Below, one piece after another: positions 32,263 through 37,127 of a DNA stretch of 64,000 bases. Each line of letters opens with the position of its first letter. Within the stretch, counting starts at the first letter, position 1. Source of the stretch: Streptomyces fildesensis (GTDB lineage: Bacteria > Actinomycetota > Actinomycetes > Streptomycetales > Streptomycetaceae); contig NZ_JAAIKO010000007.1 in NCBI RefSeq assembly GCF_016107395.1, positions 186,001 through 250,000 of the forward strand, read 5' to 3'. The position numbers and the translations under genes are program-made. The notes under the pieces are model-generated. The model saw nothing but the letters and a program-made list of their open reading frames with translations. It did not search any database and had not been told where the DNA came from.

Positions 32263-32928
32263 TCAATGCGCGATGAGCGCTTTGAGGGCGATGTTGAGCT
32301 TCAGGACGTTCACCCGCGGCTCACCGATGAAGCCGAGGATCCGGCCGTCGGTGTTGTCCGCCACCAGCTTCTCGACCTGCTGGGCGTCGAGCTTGTTGAG
32401 CGCGGCGACCCGGTGGACCTGGAGCTCGGCGTACTCGGGCGAGATCTGCGGGTCGAGGCCGGAGCCGGAGGAGGTGACGGCGTCGGCCGGCACGTCCGAG
32501 GGCTTGACCTTGAAGTCCGCCGTGGAGTTGTCCTTGACGACGGCGGCCTTGGCCTCCGTCACCCACTTGATCAGGTCCGCGTTGTCGCCGGAGCGGTTGG
32601 TGGCCCCGGAGAGGATGAGCGAGTACTGGGTGTTGACGGAGTTGGTGCCCAGTCCGTTGGACGGCCGCGGCTGGAACCACTTCAGGTCGGGCGCGGGAGT
32701 CTCCTCGCCGTTCTTCAGCGGCAGGTTGTAGGTCTGTCCGATGAGGCTGGAACCGACGACCTTGCCGCCGTCCTTGATCTCCGAACCGTTGGCCTTGTTG
32801 TGGAACAGGCCCTGGGCTATGCCGGTGATCAGGAGCGGGTAGAGCACGCCGCAGACCAGAGTCAGGACGAGCAGCGCGCGCACCCCGGCTCCGAACAACC
32901 GCACGGTGTTTCCAAATGAGTTGTTCAC
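32263..32928 (-). CDS. kdpC: Potassium-transporting ATPase C subunit
   Basis: The start GTG 32928 (VNNSFGNTVRLFGAGVRALL) lies 4 bp after the kdpB stop. The 221-residue protein has one N-terminal membrane helix (ALLVLTLVCGVLYPLLITGI) and the KdpC periplasmic domain with SSLIGQTYNLP, WFQPRPS, DAVTSSGSGLDPQISPEYA and NVLKLNIAL. KdpC helps assemble and stabilise the KdpFABC K+ pump. The serine/glycine signature TSSGSGLDPQIS is intact. Confidence 0.97.
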   Translation of the reverse strand: MNNSFGNTVRLFGAGVRALLVLTLVCGVLYPLLITGIAQGLFHNKANGSEIKDGGKVVGSSLIGQTYNLPLKNGEETPAPDLKWFQPRPSNGLGTNSVNTQYSLILSGATNRSGDNADLIKWVTEAKAAVVKDNSTADFKVKPSDVPADAVTSSGSGLDPQISPEYAELQVHRVAALNKLDAQQVEKLVADNTDGRILGFIGEPRVNVLKLNIALKALIAH

Positions 32929-32932
32929 GACG

Positions 32933-35062
32933 TCACCCGATGCCAGGGATGAGGGAGATGAGCAGGTCAATGATCTTGATGCCGATGAACGGGGCGATCA
33001 GGCCGCCGAGTCCGTAGACGGCCAGGTTGCGGCGGAGCATCTTGTCGGCGCCCATCGGCTTGTACCGCACGCCCCGGAGGGCGAGGGGCACCAGCGCGAT
33101 GATGATCAGCGCGTTGAAGATGACCGCGGACAGGATCGCGGACTGCGGGCTGTGCAGGCCCATGATGTTGAGCTTGTCCAGGCCGGGGTAGGCGACCGCG
33201 AACATGGCGGGGATGATCGCGAAGTACTTCGCGACGTCGTTGGCGATGGAGAACGTCGTCAGCGCGCCACGGGTGATCAGCAACTGCTTGCCGATCTCCA
33301 CGATCTCGATGAGCTTGGTGGGGTTGGAGTCCAGGTCCACCATGTTCCCGGCCTCCTTGGCGGCCGAGGTACCGGTGTTCATCGCCACGCCCACGTCCGC
33401 CTGCGCCAGCGCGGGAGCGTCATTGGTGCCGTCACCGGTCATCGCGACGAGCTTGCCGCCCGCCTGCTCCCGCTTGATCAGCGCCATCTTGTCCTCAGGA
33501 GTCGCCTCCGCGAGGAAGTCGTCGACGCCGGCCTCCTCGGCGATCGCCTTGGCGGTCAGCGGGTTGTCACCGGTGATCATGATGGTCTTGATGCCCATCC
33601 GGCGCAGCTCGTCGAACCGCTCCCGCATGCCCTCCTTGACGACGTCCTTGAGGTGGATGACGCCCAGCACGCGGGCGCCCTCGGTGTCCTCGACAGCGAC
33701 GAGCAGCGGCGTACCGCCGGCCTGGGAGATCGCGTCGGTGAGCGCCTGGGCGTCCTTGGCGACGACTCCGCCGCGCTCGTTGACCCAGGCGATGACCGAA
33801 CCGGCCGCGCCCTTGCGGACCTTGCGGCCGTCCACGTCCACACCCGACATGCGGGTCTGGGCGGTGAACGCGACCCAGTCGGCGCCCTTCAGCTCACCCT
33901 GCTGCCGCTCGCGCAGCCCGTACTTCTCCTTCGCCAGCACGACGATGGAGCGGCCTTCCGGCGTCTCGTCGGAGAGCGAGGAGAGCTGAGCGGCGTCGGC
34001 GAGCTCGGCGTCCGTGGTGCCCTGGACGGGTACGAACTCCGATGCCTGGCGGTTGCCGAGGGTGATGGTGCCGGTCTTGTCGAGCAGCAGCGTGGAGACG
34101 TCACCGGCGGCCTCGACGGCACGGCCCGACATCGCCAGCACGTTGCGCTGCACCAGCCGGTCCATGCCCGCGATGCCGATCGCCGACAGCAGAGCGCCGA
34201 TGGTGGTCGGGATGAGGCAGACGAGGAGCGCGACCAGCACGATCATGGACTGCTTCTGGCCGGCGTAGATCGCGAACGGCTGGAGCGTGACGACCGCGAG
34301 CAGGAAGACGATCGTGAGCGACGCCAGCAGGATGTTCAGCGCGATCTCGTTCGGCGTCTTCTGCCGGGAGGCACCTTCCACCAGGGCGATCATCCGGTCG
34401 ATGAACGTCTCGCCCGGCTTCGTCGTGATCTTGATGACGACGCGGTCGGAGAGCACCTTCGTGCCACCGGTCACCGCGCAGCGGTCACCGCCGGACTCCC
34501 GGATGACCGGGGCCGATTCGCCGGTGATGGCCGACTCGTCGACGCTCGCGACGCCCTCGACGACGTCCCCGTCACCGGGGATGACGTCGCCGGCCTCGCA
34601 GACCACCAGGTCACCGATGCGCAGCTCGGCACCGGGAACGCTCTCCTCCACGCCGCCGTTGAGCCGCCGCGCGACGGTGTCGGTCTTGGCCTTGCGCAGG
34701 GTGTCGGCCTGCGCCTTGCCGCGGCCCTCGGCCACCGCCTCCGCCAGGTTGGCGAAGATCGTGGTGAGCCAGAGCCAGGCGGCGATGGCCCAGCCGAACC
34801 AGTCGCCCGGGTTGGTGAACGCGAAGATCGTGCTCAGCACGGAGCCGATCTCGACCACGAACATCACGGGGGACTTGACCATCACCCGCGGGTCGAGCTT
34901 GCGGACCGCGTCCGGGAAGGACCTGATCAGCTGCTTGGGGTCGAACAGGCCCCCACCGACGCGTGCGCCGTCGGGCTGGTGACCGGTGGGCACATCATGG
35001 TGCGGGGCACGGGTCGGAGTGACAGTGGACATCGAGTCCTCTTGCTTCAGACGAGTGGTCAT
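32933..35062 (-). CDS. kdpB: Potassium-transporting ATPase B subunit (P-type ATPase)
   Basis: ATG 35062 overlaps the kdpA stop as ATGA; the frame stays open far upstream but that part lies inside kdpA. The 709-residue catalytic subunit has the TGES actuator motif ([16 protein letters not shown]), the phosphorylation site [13 protein letters not shown] and the hinge [20 protein letters not shown]. It hydrolyses ATP to drive high-affinity K+ uptake through KdpA. The first 45 residues are a polar tail typical of actinobacterial KdpB. Confidence 0.97.
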
Positions 35063-36723
35063 GACCCCAGCCCCTCGGCGAGCGGCCCCAGCGCCAGCGC
35101 GGGGAAGTAGGTCAGTCCAGTGACGATGATGATCGTGCCGACCAGCAGCCCGGTGAAGAGCGGCTTGTGGGTGCCCAGGGTGCCCGCGGTGGCCGGGACC
35201 GGCTTCTGCTCGGCGAGCGAGCCGGCCAGCGCCAGCACGAACACCATCGGCAGGAACCGGCCGAGCAGCATCGCGAGCCCGATCGTGGTGTTGAACCACT
35301 GGGTGTCGGCGTTGAGCCCGGCGAAGGCCGAGCCGTTGTTGTTGGCGCCCGAGGTGTACGCGTACAGGATCTCGGAGAAGCCGTGCGCGCCCGAGTTCGT
35401 CATCGACGTCATCGGGGTCGGCAGCGCCATGGCGGCGGCGGTGAAGCACAGCGCCAGCGCCGGGGTGATGAGGATGTAGCACGCCGCGAACTTGATCTCG
35501 CGGGTGCCGATCTTCTTGCCCAGGTACTCGGGTGTGCGTCCCACCATCAGGCCCGCGATGAACACCGCGATGATGGCCATGATCAGCATGCCGTAGAGGC
35601 CGGAGCCGACACCACCGGGAGCGATCTCGCCGAGCTGCATGCCCAGCATGGTGATACCGCCGCCGAAGCCGGTGAACGAGGAGTGGAACGAGTTCACGGC
35701 GCCGGTCGAGGTCAGTGTGGTCGCCACCGCGAAGATCGACGAGCCGCCGACACCGAACCGGGTCTCCTTGCCCTCCATCGCACCACCGGCGATGTTGAAG
35801 GCCGGGCCGCCGTGGTGGAACTCGGTCCACATCATCAGCGCGGTGAAGCCGATCCAGATCGTCACCATCGTGGCGAGGATCGCGTAGCCCTGCTTGACGC
35901 TGCCGACCATCTTGCCGAAGGTGCGGGTGAGCGCGAAGGGGATGACGAGGATCAGGAAGATCTCGAAGAGGTTCGAGATGCCGTTCGGGTTCTCGAAGGG
36001 GTGCGCCGAGTTGGCGTTGAAGTAACCGCCACCGTTGGTGCCCAGCTCCTTGATGGCCTCCTGGGAAGCCACCGCGCCGCCGTTCCACTGCTGCGAGCCG
36101 CCCATGAACTGGCCGACACCGTGGATGCCGGAGAAGTTCTGGATCGCGCCGCAGGCGACCAGCACGATCGCACCGATCACCGCGATCGGGATCAGGATGC
36201 GTACGGTGCCGCGCACCAGGTCGGCCCAGAAGTTGCCGAGCTCACCGGTGCGGGAGCGGGCGAAGCCGCGTACCAGGGCCACCGCCACGGCGAGGCCGAC
36301 GGCCGCCGAGACGAAGTTCTGCACCGCGAGGCCGCCGGTCTGTACGACGTGGCCCATGGCCTGCTCGCCGTAGTACGACTGCCAGTTGGTGTTCGACACG
36401 AAGGACGCGGCGGTGTTGAACGCCTGGTCCGGGTCGATCGCGGAGAAGCCGAGCGAACCGGGCAGGCTGCCCTGGATCCGCTGCATCACGTAGAGGAAGA
36501 GGACGCTCGCCGCGGAGAAGGCGAGGACACCGCGCAGGTACGCGGGCCAGCGCATCTCGGTGGACGGGTTGGCGCCGATGGCCTTGTAGATCCACTTCTC
36601 GACCCGCAGATGCTTGTCGGAGGAGTAGACGCCGGCCATGAAGTCGCCGAGCGGACGGTATGCCAGTGCGAGCGCGGCTATCAGCGCGAGCATCTGGAGC
36701 ACACCGGCGAGGACGGGGCTCAT
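35059..36723 (-). CDS. kdpA: Potassium-transporting ATPase A subunit
   Basis: The 554-residue K+-channel-like subunit has ten predicted helices and selectivity-loop segments including [37 protein letters not shown] and [11 protein letters not shown], plus [17 protein letters not shown]. It binds and conducts K+ and belongs to the superfamily of K+ transporters. It starts 8 bp downstream of the kdpF stop and overlaps kdpB by 4 bp, so FABC is one transcription unit. Confidence 0.97.
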
Positions 36724-36731
36724 ATCTGGAC

Positions 36732-36821
36732 TCAGAACCTCTCCGGGTAAAGAAGGGCGAGGACGAGGTAGCCCAGGAGGGCGACGGCCACGACGAGGCC
36801 GACGATGTTCTCGGCGGTCAC
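36732..36821 (-). CDS. kdpF: KdpF peptide
   Basis: A 29-residue single-helix peptide (GTG 36821) with NIVGLVVAVALLGYLVLALL and the end YPERF, which is the KdpF signature. It stabilises the Kdp complex in the membrane. Its GTG overlaps the stop of the preceding micro-gene as GTGA. Confidence 0.93.
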   Translation of the reverse strand: MTAENIVGLVVAVALLGYLVLALLYPERF

Positions 36822-36901
36822 AGCTTTGCCACCCCCTTGGCGATGAGAGCCACCAACGCGAACACCGCGATCGTGGTGACGACGAAGGCCATGTCGGCCA
36901 T
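36818..36901 (-). CDS. 27-residue membrane peptide leading the kdp operon
   Basis: The sequence MADMAFVVTTIAVFALVALI then AKGVAKL has one membrane helix and a basic tail. ATG 36901 is preceded by AGGAG at good spacing, and the stop overlaps the kdpF start by 4 bp, which argues for real translation and coupling. It resembles KdpF in size and layout but not in sequence. It is probably an additional small subunit or a translational leader for kdpF. It is too short for standard gene finders. Confidence 0.75.
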   Translation of the reverse strand: MADMAFVVTTIAVFALVALIAKGVAKL

Positions 36902-36971
36902 CGTGTGCTCCTAGAAGAGTCGGAATCTCTGACCCTCTGAGCAAACCTCCTGAACAGGCCGCTTCGTCTTT

Positions 36972-37014
36972 CGTTGATGCGTCCCTTACGGCCACTGGCA
37001 CGCTTTTGACGCCT
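36972..37014. promoter_or_regulatory. Candidate regulatory repeats upstream of kdp
   Basis: On the minus strand two related blocks, AGGCGTCAAAAGCG (37014-37001) and GACGCATCAACG (36983-36972), lie about 30 bp apart, each preceded by CGTAAG. The RTCAA core recurs before the second KimA-like gene and the two paralogous membrane proteins. This is a candidate operator for a KdpE-like regulator. It lies about 70-110 bp before the first micro-gene. Confidence 0.45.
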
Positions 37015-37127
37015 CTCTTACGCACCCGGCCTCACCTGCGGAAAAGCCGGTGCAGAGGGCTGCGCACGCCGGATTCCGGACGCCTGCTCCACCGCTGGGG
37101 CGCCCCGCTCCACTGCGCGATCCTGAC

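Follow-up and report, generated by a model that had tools for sequence, protein, structure and literature searches.

KdpFABC, a textbook K+ pump, consists of four subunits, and the structural papers on it that we found deal with the E. coli complex. Small single-helix accessory subunits are known from other membrane complexes (CydX, CcoM and AcrZ), and the micropeptides sarcolipin, phospholamban and FXYD regulate P-type ATPases. In the cyanobacterial kdp literature, KdpG denotes a gene between kdpB and kdpC. KdpF, a peptide of about 29 residues, reportedly aids the assembly or stability of KdpFABC, a finding ascribed to Gassel et al. in 1999, as listed among the references of PMC11364881.

A micro-ORF in front of kdpF

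We analyzed a 64,000-nucleotide stretch of Streptomyces fildesensis DNA (the window), in which a 27-codon micro-ORF (36818-36901, minus strand, ATG to TGA) was identified by translation and conservation. Its product, MADMAFVVTTIAVFALVALIAKGVAKL, is a 27-residue peptide with a single membrane helix, as judged from hydropathy only. An AGGAG Shine-Dalgarno site (36908-36912, minus strand) is separated from the ATG by a 6-nt spacer, and the four nucleotides GTGA (36818-36821, minus strand) join the stop codon of the micro-ORF to the GTG start of kdpF. The original prediction had named the ribosome-binding site, the overlap and the single helix, and all three were recovered here. Its GC3 of 0.93 speaks against a chance ORF, and its translation is inferred. 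A further element, AAGGGGGTGG (36829-36838, minus strand), lies inside the micro-ORF at codons K22-G23-V24 and is the likely ribosome-binding site of kdpF.

The kdp genes that follow are all on the minus strand: kdpF (36732-36821, 29 aa; 40.2 bits with TIGR02115 against a cut-off of 26.85 bits for the kdpF call, and 37.1 bits with PF09604), kdpA (35059-36723; PF03814, 745.6 bits), kdpB (32933-35017, start approximate; TIGR01497, 1049.8 bits) and kdpC (32263-32931, start approximate; NF010599, 415.5 bits). Two direct repeats, GTAAGGGACGCATCAA and GTAAGAGAGGCGTCAA, are spaced 32 nt apart in the intergenic region (36974-37021, minus strand), 88 and 120 nt 5' of the micro-ORF start, and similar CGTCAA-type repeats (GTCAAG/CGTCAA half sites) precede many Streptomyces micro-ORFs. 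The repeats look like a putative OmpR/KdpE-type operator, and if they act as one, the kdp transcript would have the micro-ORF as its first cistron. Rfam gave no convincing match in the leader region, and a search for a sigma-70 promoter or terminator found none. Directly upstream of the operon is a gene for an amino-acid-permease-family transporter (PF13520; 37282-39135, minus strand), which from its general resemblance might be a KimA-like K+ importer.

Comparison with the described systems set the peptide apart from all of them. Like KdpF, it has one membrane helix, belongs to the same operon and is usually adjacent with overlapping ends, and its role is likely alike; unlike KdpF, it has other conserved residues and no homology to that protein was detectable. 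The window peptide did not match TIGR02115 or PF09604 even at E = 10; ten relatives gave no match to these models either, and the neighboring ORF downstream does match both. An origin by duplication of KdpF would agree with the adjacency, the equal length and the probably identical membrane orientation of the two peptides, but the profile-profile probability from hhalign was 3.4% (a test whose power is limited by the very short helices) and the motifs differ, being YLxYALxxPExF in KdpF and D...FF...C(D/E)RL in the peptide; a duplicated KdpF is therefore unsupported and, in our judgment, very improbable. CydX, CcoM and AcrZ are likewise tiny, hydrophobic and long overlooked by annotation, but they serve different complexes and showed no sequence relation to the peptide in Pfam/NCBIfam searches. 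Sarcolipin, phospholamban and FXYD share the single helix, and a P-type ATPase is conceivable as the partner of the peptide; unlike these eukaryotic proteins, to which no sequence relation was seen, the peptide is encoded by a gene that keeps to kdpF/kdpA. The likeness to KdpG is that of an additional small kdp gene. The gene that Synechocystis PCC 6714 carries between kdpB and kdpC (L302, 4355-4555) is annotated as KdpF; its product has 66 aa, among them a signal-like N-terminal extension, and the operon yielded no relative of the peptide. Identity with the cyanobacterial KdpG is thus unsupported, the Synechocystis gene at that position being KdpF-like and unlike the peptide.

Searches of Pfam, NCBIfam, PHROGs and the PDB returned no meaningful relatives. 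The open literature yielded no description of the gene, though an earlier account is possible as most subscription papers and preprints fell outside the coverage. A peptide family that exists under constraint, is linked almost exclusively to kdpF/kdpA and is widely distributed is absent from the protein-family models searched (Pfam, NCBIfam).

Selection and anatomy of the peptide

Among 41 related genomes searched, 39 contained a total of 52 peptide matches. All loci were inspected, and every one of the 52 matches lies directly 5' of kdpF, so that in these relatives the gene occurs (almost) only in kdp operons; in a few, kdpF is damaged or interrupted by a contig end. The peptides are 27 or 29 residues long and the overlap with kdpF is 4 nt in Streptomyces and 11 nt in a second family. 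The in-frame pN/pS of the micro-ORF is 0.18 in six close relatives and 0.50 in 32 distinct 27-codon sequences, the value for kdpF being 0.40. In the two remaining frames of the region it was 1.06-6.2 overall, and 1.4 and 1.2 for the 32 distinct sequences. The third codon position is the most variable in the micro-ORF, and its G+C content of 91% is what a Streptomyces gene would be expected to have. The recurrence of the micro-ORF before kdpF in other actinobacteria and its conservation at the codon and amino-acid level, on which the original prediction hinged, are both evident from these data, and the single predicted helix is accompanied by amino-acid selection. It is thus well supported that the micro-ORF is no accidental ORF but a true protein gene, belonging to the kdp operon and kept under selection. 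Other strong matches from a wider search were nearly all beside kdpA, with one (L077) seemingly unrelated. Two of the loci seen are kdp operons in decay: L036 has an intact peptide ORF beside a corrupted kdpF, with a kdpD-like sequence directly next, and in L051 a deletion appears to join kdpA and kdpB.

A consensus derived from 113 distinct sequences of the wider set features Asp3 (84%), Phe-Phe at 13-14 (Phe14, 75%), Cys24 (57%; often Val in actinomycetes), Asp/Glu25 (71%), Arg/Lys26 (75%) and Leu27 (78%). The N-terminus carries a net negative and the C-terminus a net positive charge, which suggests an N-out, C-in orientation; the conserved Asp at 2-3 would then probably be outside and the C-terminal Cys/Val-Asp/Glu-Arg/Lys-Leu inside. 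The conserved positions do not form a significant one-sided helical face (p ~0.2). The Streptomyces codons for Lys22-Gly23, AAG GGG, double as the apparent kdpF ribosome-binding site, a probable DNA function that may partly explain the conservation of these two residues. The C-terminal motif, however, is equally strong or stronger in 45 distinct sequences whose stop codon precedes kdpF by at least 5 nt, identifying it as a feature of the protein.

Distribution across phyla and gene order

The original prediction spoke of actinomycetes only, but the peptide spans many phyla. Other Actinomycetota have similar short ORFs upstream of kdpA, as do the plasmid-borne kdp operons of Azospirillum, Caballeronia, Deinococcus, Acetobacter and Burkholderia and the named genomes of Chloroflexota, Planctomycetota, Acidobacteriota, Nitrospirota, Myxococcota, Ignavibacteriota and the alpha-, beta- and gammaproteobacteria. 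To avoid circularity, we built a held-out profile from 17 actinobacterial peptides only and applied it to 78 kdp loci, nearly all from non-actinobacterial phyla. Its best match exceeded all 200 dinucleotide shuffles in 68 of the 78 loci and ranked first among all six-frame windows in 71; two of these top-ranking matches were KdpF itself, leaving 69/78. Group counts were made per scorable kdpA locus with a profile from all groups, which detected the peptide in 49/49 loci of Streptomyces and relatives, in 22/29 Actinomycetota loci from an even draw of genomes, and in 71/78 of the named-genome loci (the last figure not being held out). Three further groups had no part in the training of this profile, and among them the peptide was present in 24/29 Pseudomonadota and 7/18 Bacteroidota kdp loci (both from the even draw) and in none of the 27 Enterobacteriaceae loci. 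As false-positive controls, the reverse strand gave 1/195 and same-strand sequence farther upstream gave 1/188; the single upstream match probably represents a true second copy. A chance ORF in the kdp 5' region might be suspected given its very small size and the lack of a match in the annotation models searched, but this is contradicted by the conservation across phyla, the in-frame constraint, the held-out profile and the low false-positive counts, and we give it next to no credence. Two Azospirillum copies are listed in RefSeq as 'hypothetical protein' while most others seen have no annotated gene, the plasmid gene tables being incomplete. An annotation rule drawn from the linkage of micro-ORF and kdpF would add the missing gene to many genomes.

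Some Pseudomonas operons also lack the peptide, as does the only cyanobacterial operon encountered; of the two kdp operons in Pseudomonas sp. TH31, just one has it. Its absence from the Enterobacteriaceae is a further difference from KdpF, which was characterized in that family. On a FastTree phylogeny of 179 KdpA proteins, presence and absence of the peptide required 11 changes versus 39 for shuffled labels, and the Enterobacteriaceae formed a peptide-less clade nested within a larger clade of carriers. This nesting suggests a loss in the Enterobacteriaceae, with the direction of change tentative because the tree is a quick, midpoint-rooted one.

Gene order was informative about function. A 4-nt overlap is the commonest spacing between peptide and kdpF across the family (83 of ~174 pairs). 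The order kdpF-peptide-kdpA was found in Burkholderia arboris, Deinococcus D7000, Allomeiothermus and a second Rhodocyclaceae operon. D. radiodurans and L121 carry the peptide behind kdpB, and in a Thermomicrobiales operon it lies ~300 nt before kdpF. When the operon order changes, the peptide gene tracks kdpF/kdpA, and this persistent proximity favors a protein acting with the pump over a pure leader. The original prediction had offered a coupling leader as its second option. A translated leader whose peptide is itself inert, setting translation of kdpF or the operon via the GTGA overlap, would fit the predominance of the 4-nt spacing, the likely kdpF ribosome-binding site inside the Streptomyces micro-ORF codons and the position of the micro-ORF as first cistron after the putative operator repeats. 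The 5' location and a probable coupling to kdpF are true of Streptomyces, but several lineages place the peptide after kdpF or kdpB and the Thermomicrobiales gap leaves no overlap at all. Moreover, the amino-acid sequence is constrained in frame, at odds with a selection-free peptide, and the D..F..C(D/E)RL motif is kept where the peptide is non-overlapping, between kdpF and kdpA, or behind kdpB. A pure leader is therefore improbable; what stands of the proposal is the resemblance of the Streptomyces codons AAG GGG to a kdpF ribosome-binding site, and leader and protein roles may coexist in that genus. A possible peptide-KdpA fusion in L218 was ruled out, a stop codon separating the two. In the Thermomicrobiales loci L183/L215, an ORF of at most 129 codons without a Pfam match lies between peptide and kdpF (1503-1889).

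Proposed role beside KdpA and KdpF

We consider it reasonably probable that the peptide serves the pump as a fifth subunit, an accessory one made of a single helix. It would insert as a single transmembrane helix, probably N-out/C-in, dock next to KdpA and KdpF within the membrane-embedded portion and help to assemble or stabilize the complex, much like KdpF in E. coli; both the binding and the stabilizing role are deduced from sequence patterns. The Streptomyces micro-ORF would probably be the first cistron of the operon, its translation probably feeding that of kdpF via the GTGA overlap. Where the original prediction envisaged a sixth Kdp component of actinomycetes, the conserved, selected, single-helix and kdpF-linked nature of the peptide is in keeping with a component, which would be the fifth, since KdpFABC already has four subunits, and which extends beyond the actinomycetes. 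The E. coli pump operates without the peptide, and the lack of it in E. coli, most Bacteroidota, some Pseudomonas operons and one cyanobacterial operon indicates that it is not essential to pumping.

The main competing explanation, which we regard as unlikely, is that the peptide is a regulator and not a structural subunit, its helix adjusting KdpB, in the way that sarcolipin and phospholamban act on SERCA, or KdpD, and thereby coupling pump activity to K+ signaling. Its size and topology class match those of known regulatory micropeptides. The locus L115 carries a second peptide copy (MSDFAFTAVVLGFFALCVAYTLVCTRT...; 387-521, reverse complement) upstream of the usual peptide-kdpF-kdpA, and this copy overlaps by 4 nt the gene for a 247-aa DUF4118 protein (518-1261, reverse complement), DUF4118 being the membrane domain of KdpD. 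In addition, the peptide of the decaying L036 operon survives beside the kdpD-like sequence although kdpF is corrupted and kdpA is not next. These KdpD-linked cases, however, are single loci, and upon operon reordering the peptide gene stays with kdpF/kdpA rather than with kdpB or kdpD.

If the peptide is indeed an accessory subunit, the well-studied E. coli pump may lack a part that is carried by most bacteria sampled, and a component present in many Kdp operons has apparently never been tested, as far as the literature found shows. A broader and more tentative proposal is that the Kdp pump of bacteria is usually built from five kinds of subunit and that the E. coli KdpFABC complex derives from it by the loss of one; the missing helix might stabilize or tune the pump or connect it with KdpD, and its absence might have shaped the known structures. 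A further small membrane ORF, MFMIGQLLVADAALTILLVGVLAMLLRSKPIRKV, is present between kdpF and kdpA in Bradyrhizobium (L195/L199, -151 to -34 of kdpA), and its frame overlaps the kdpF stop by 4 nt.
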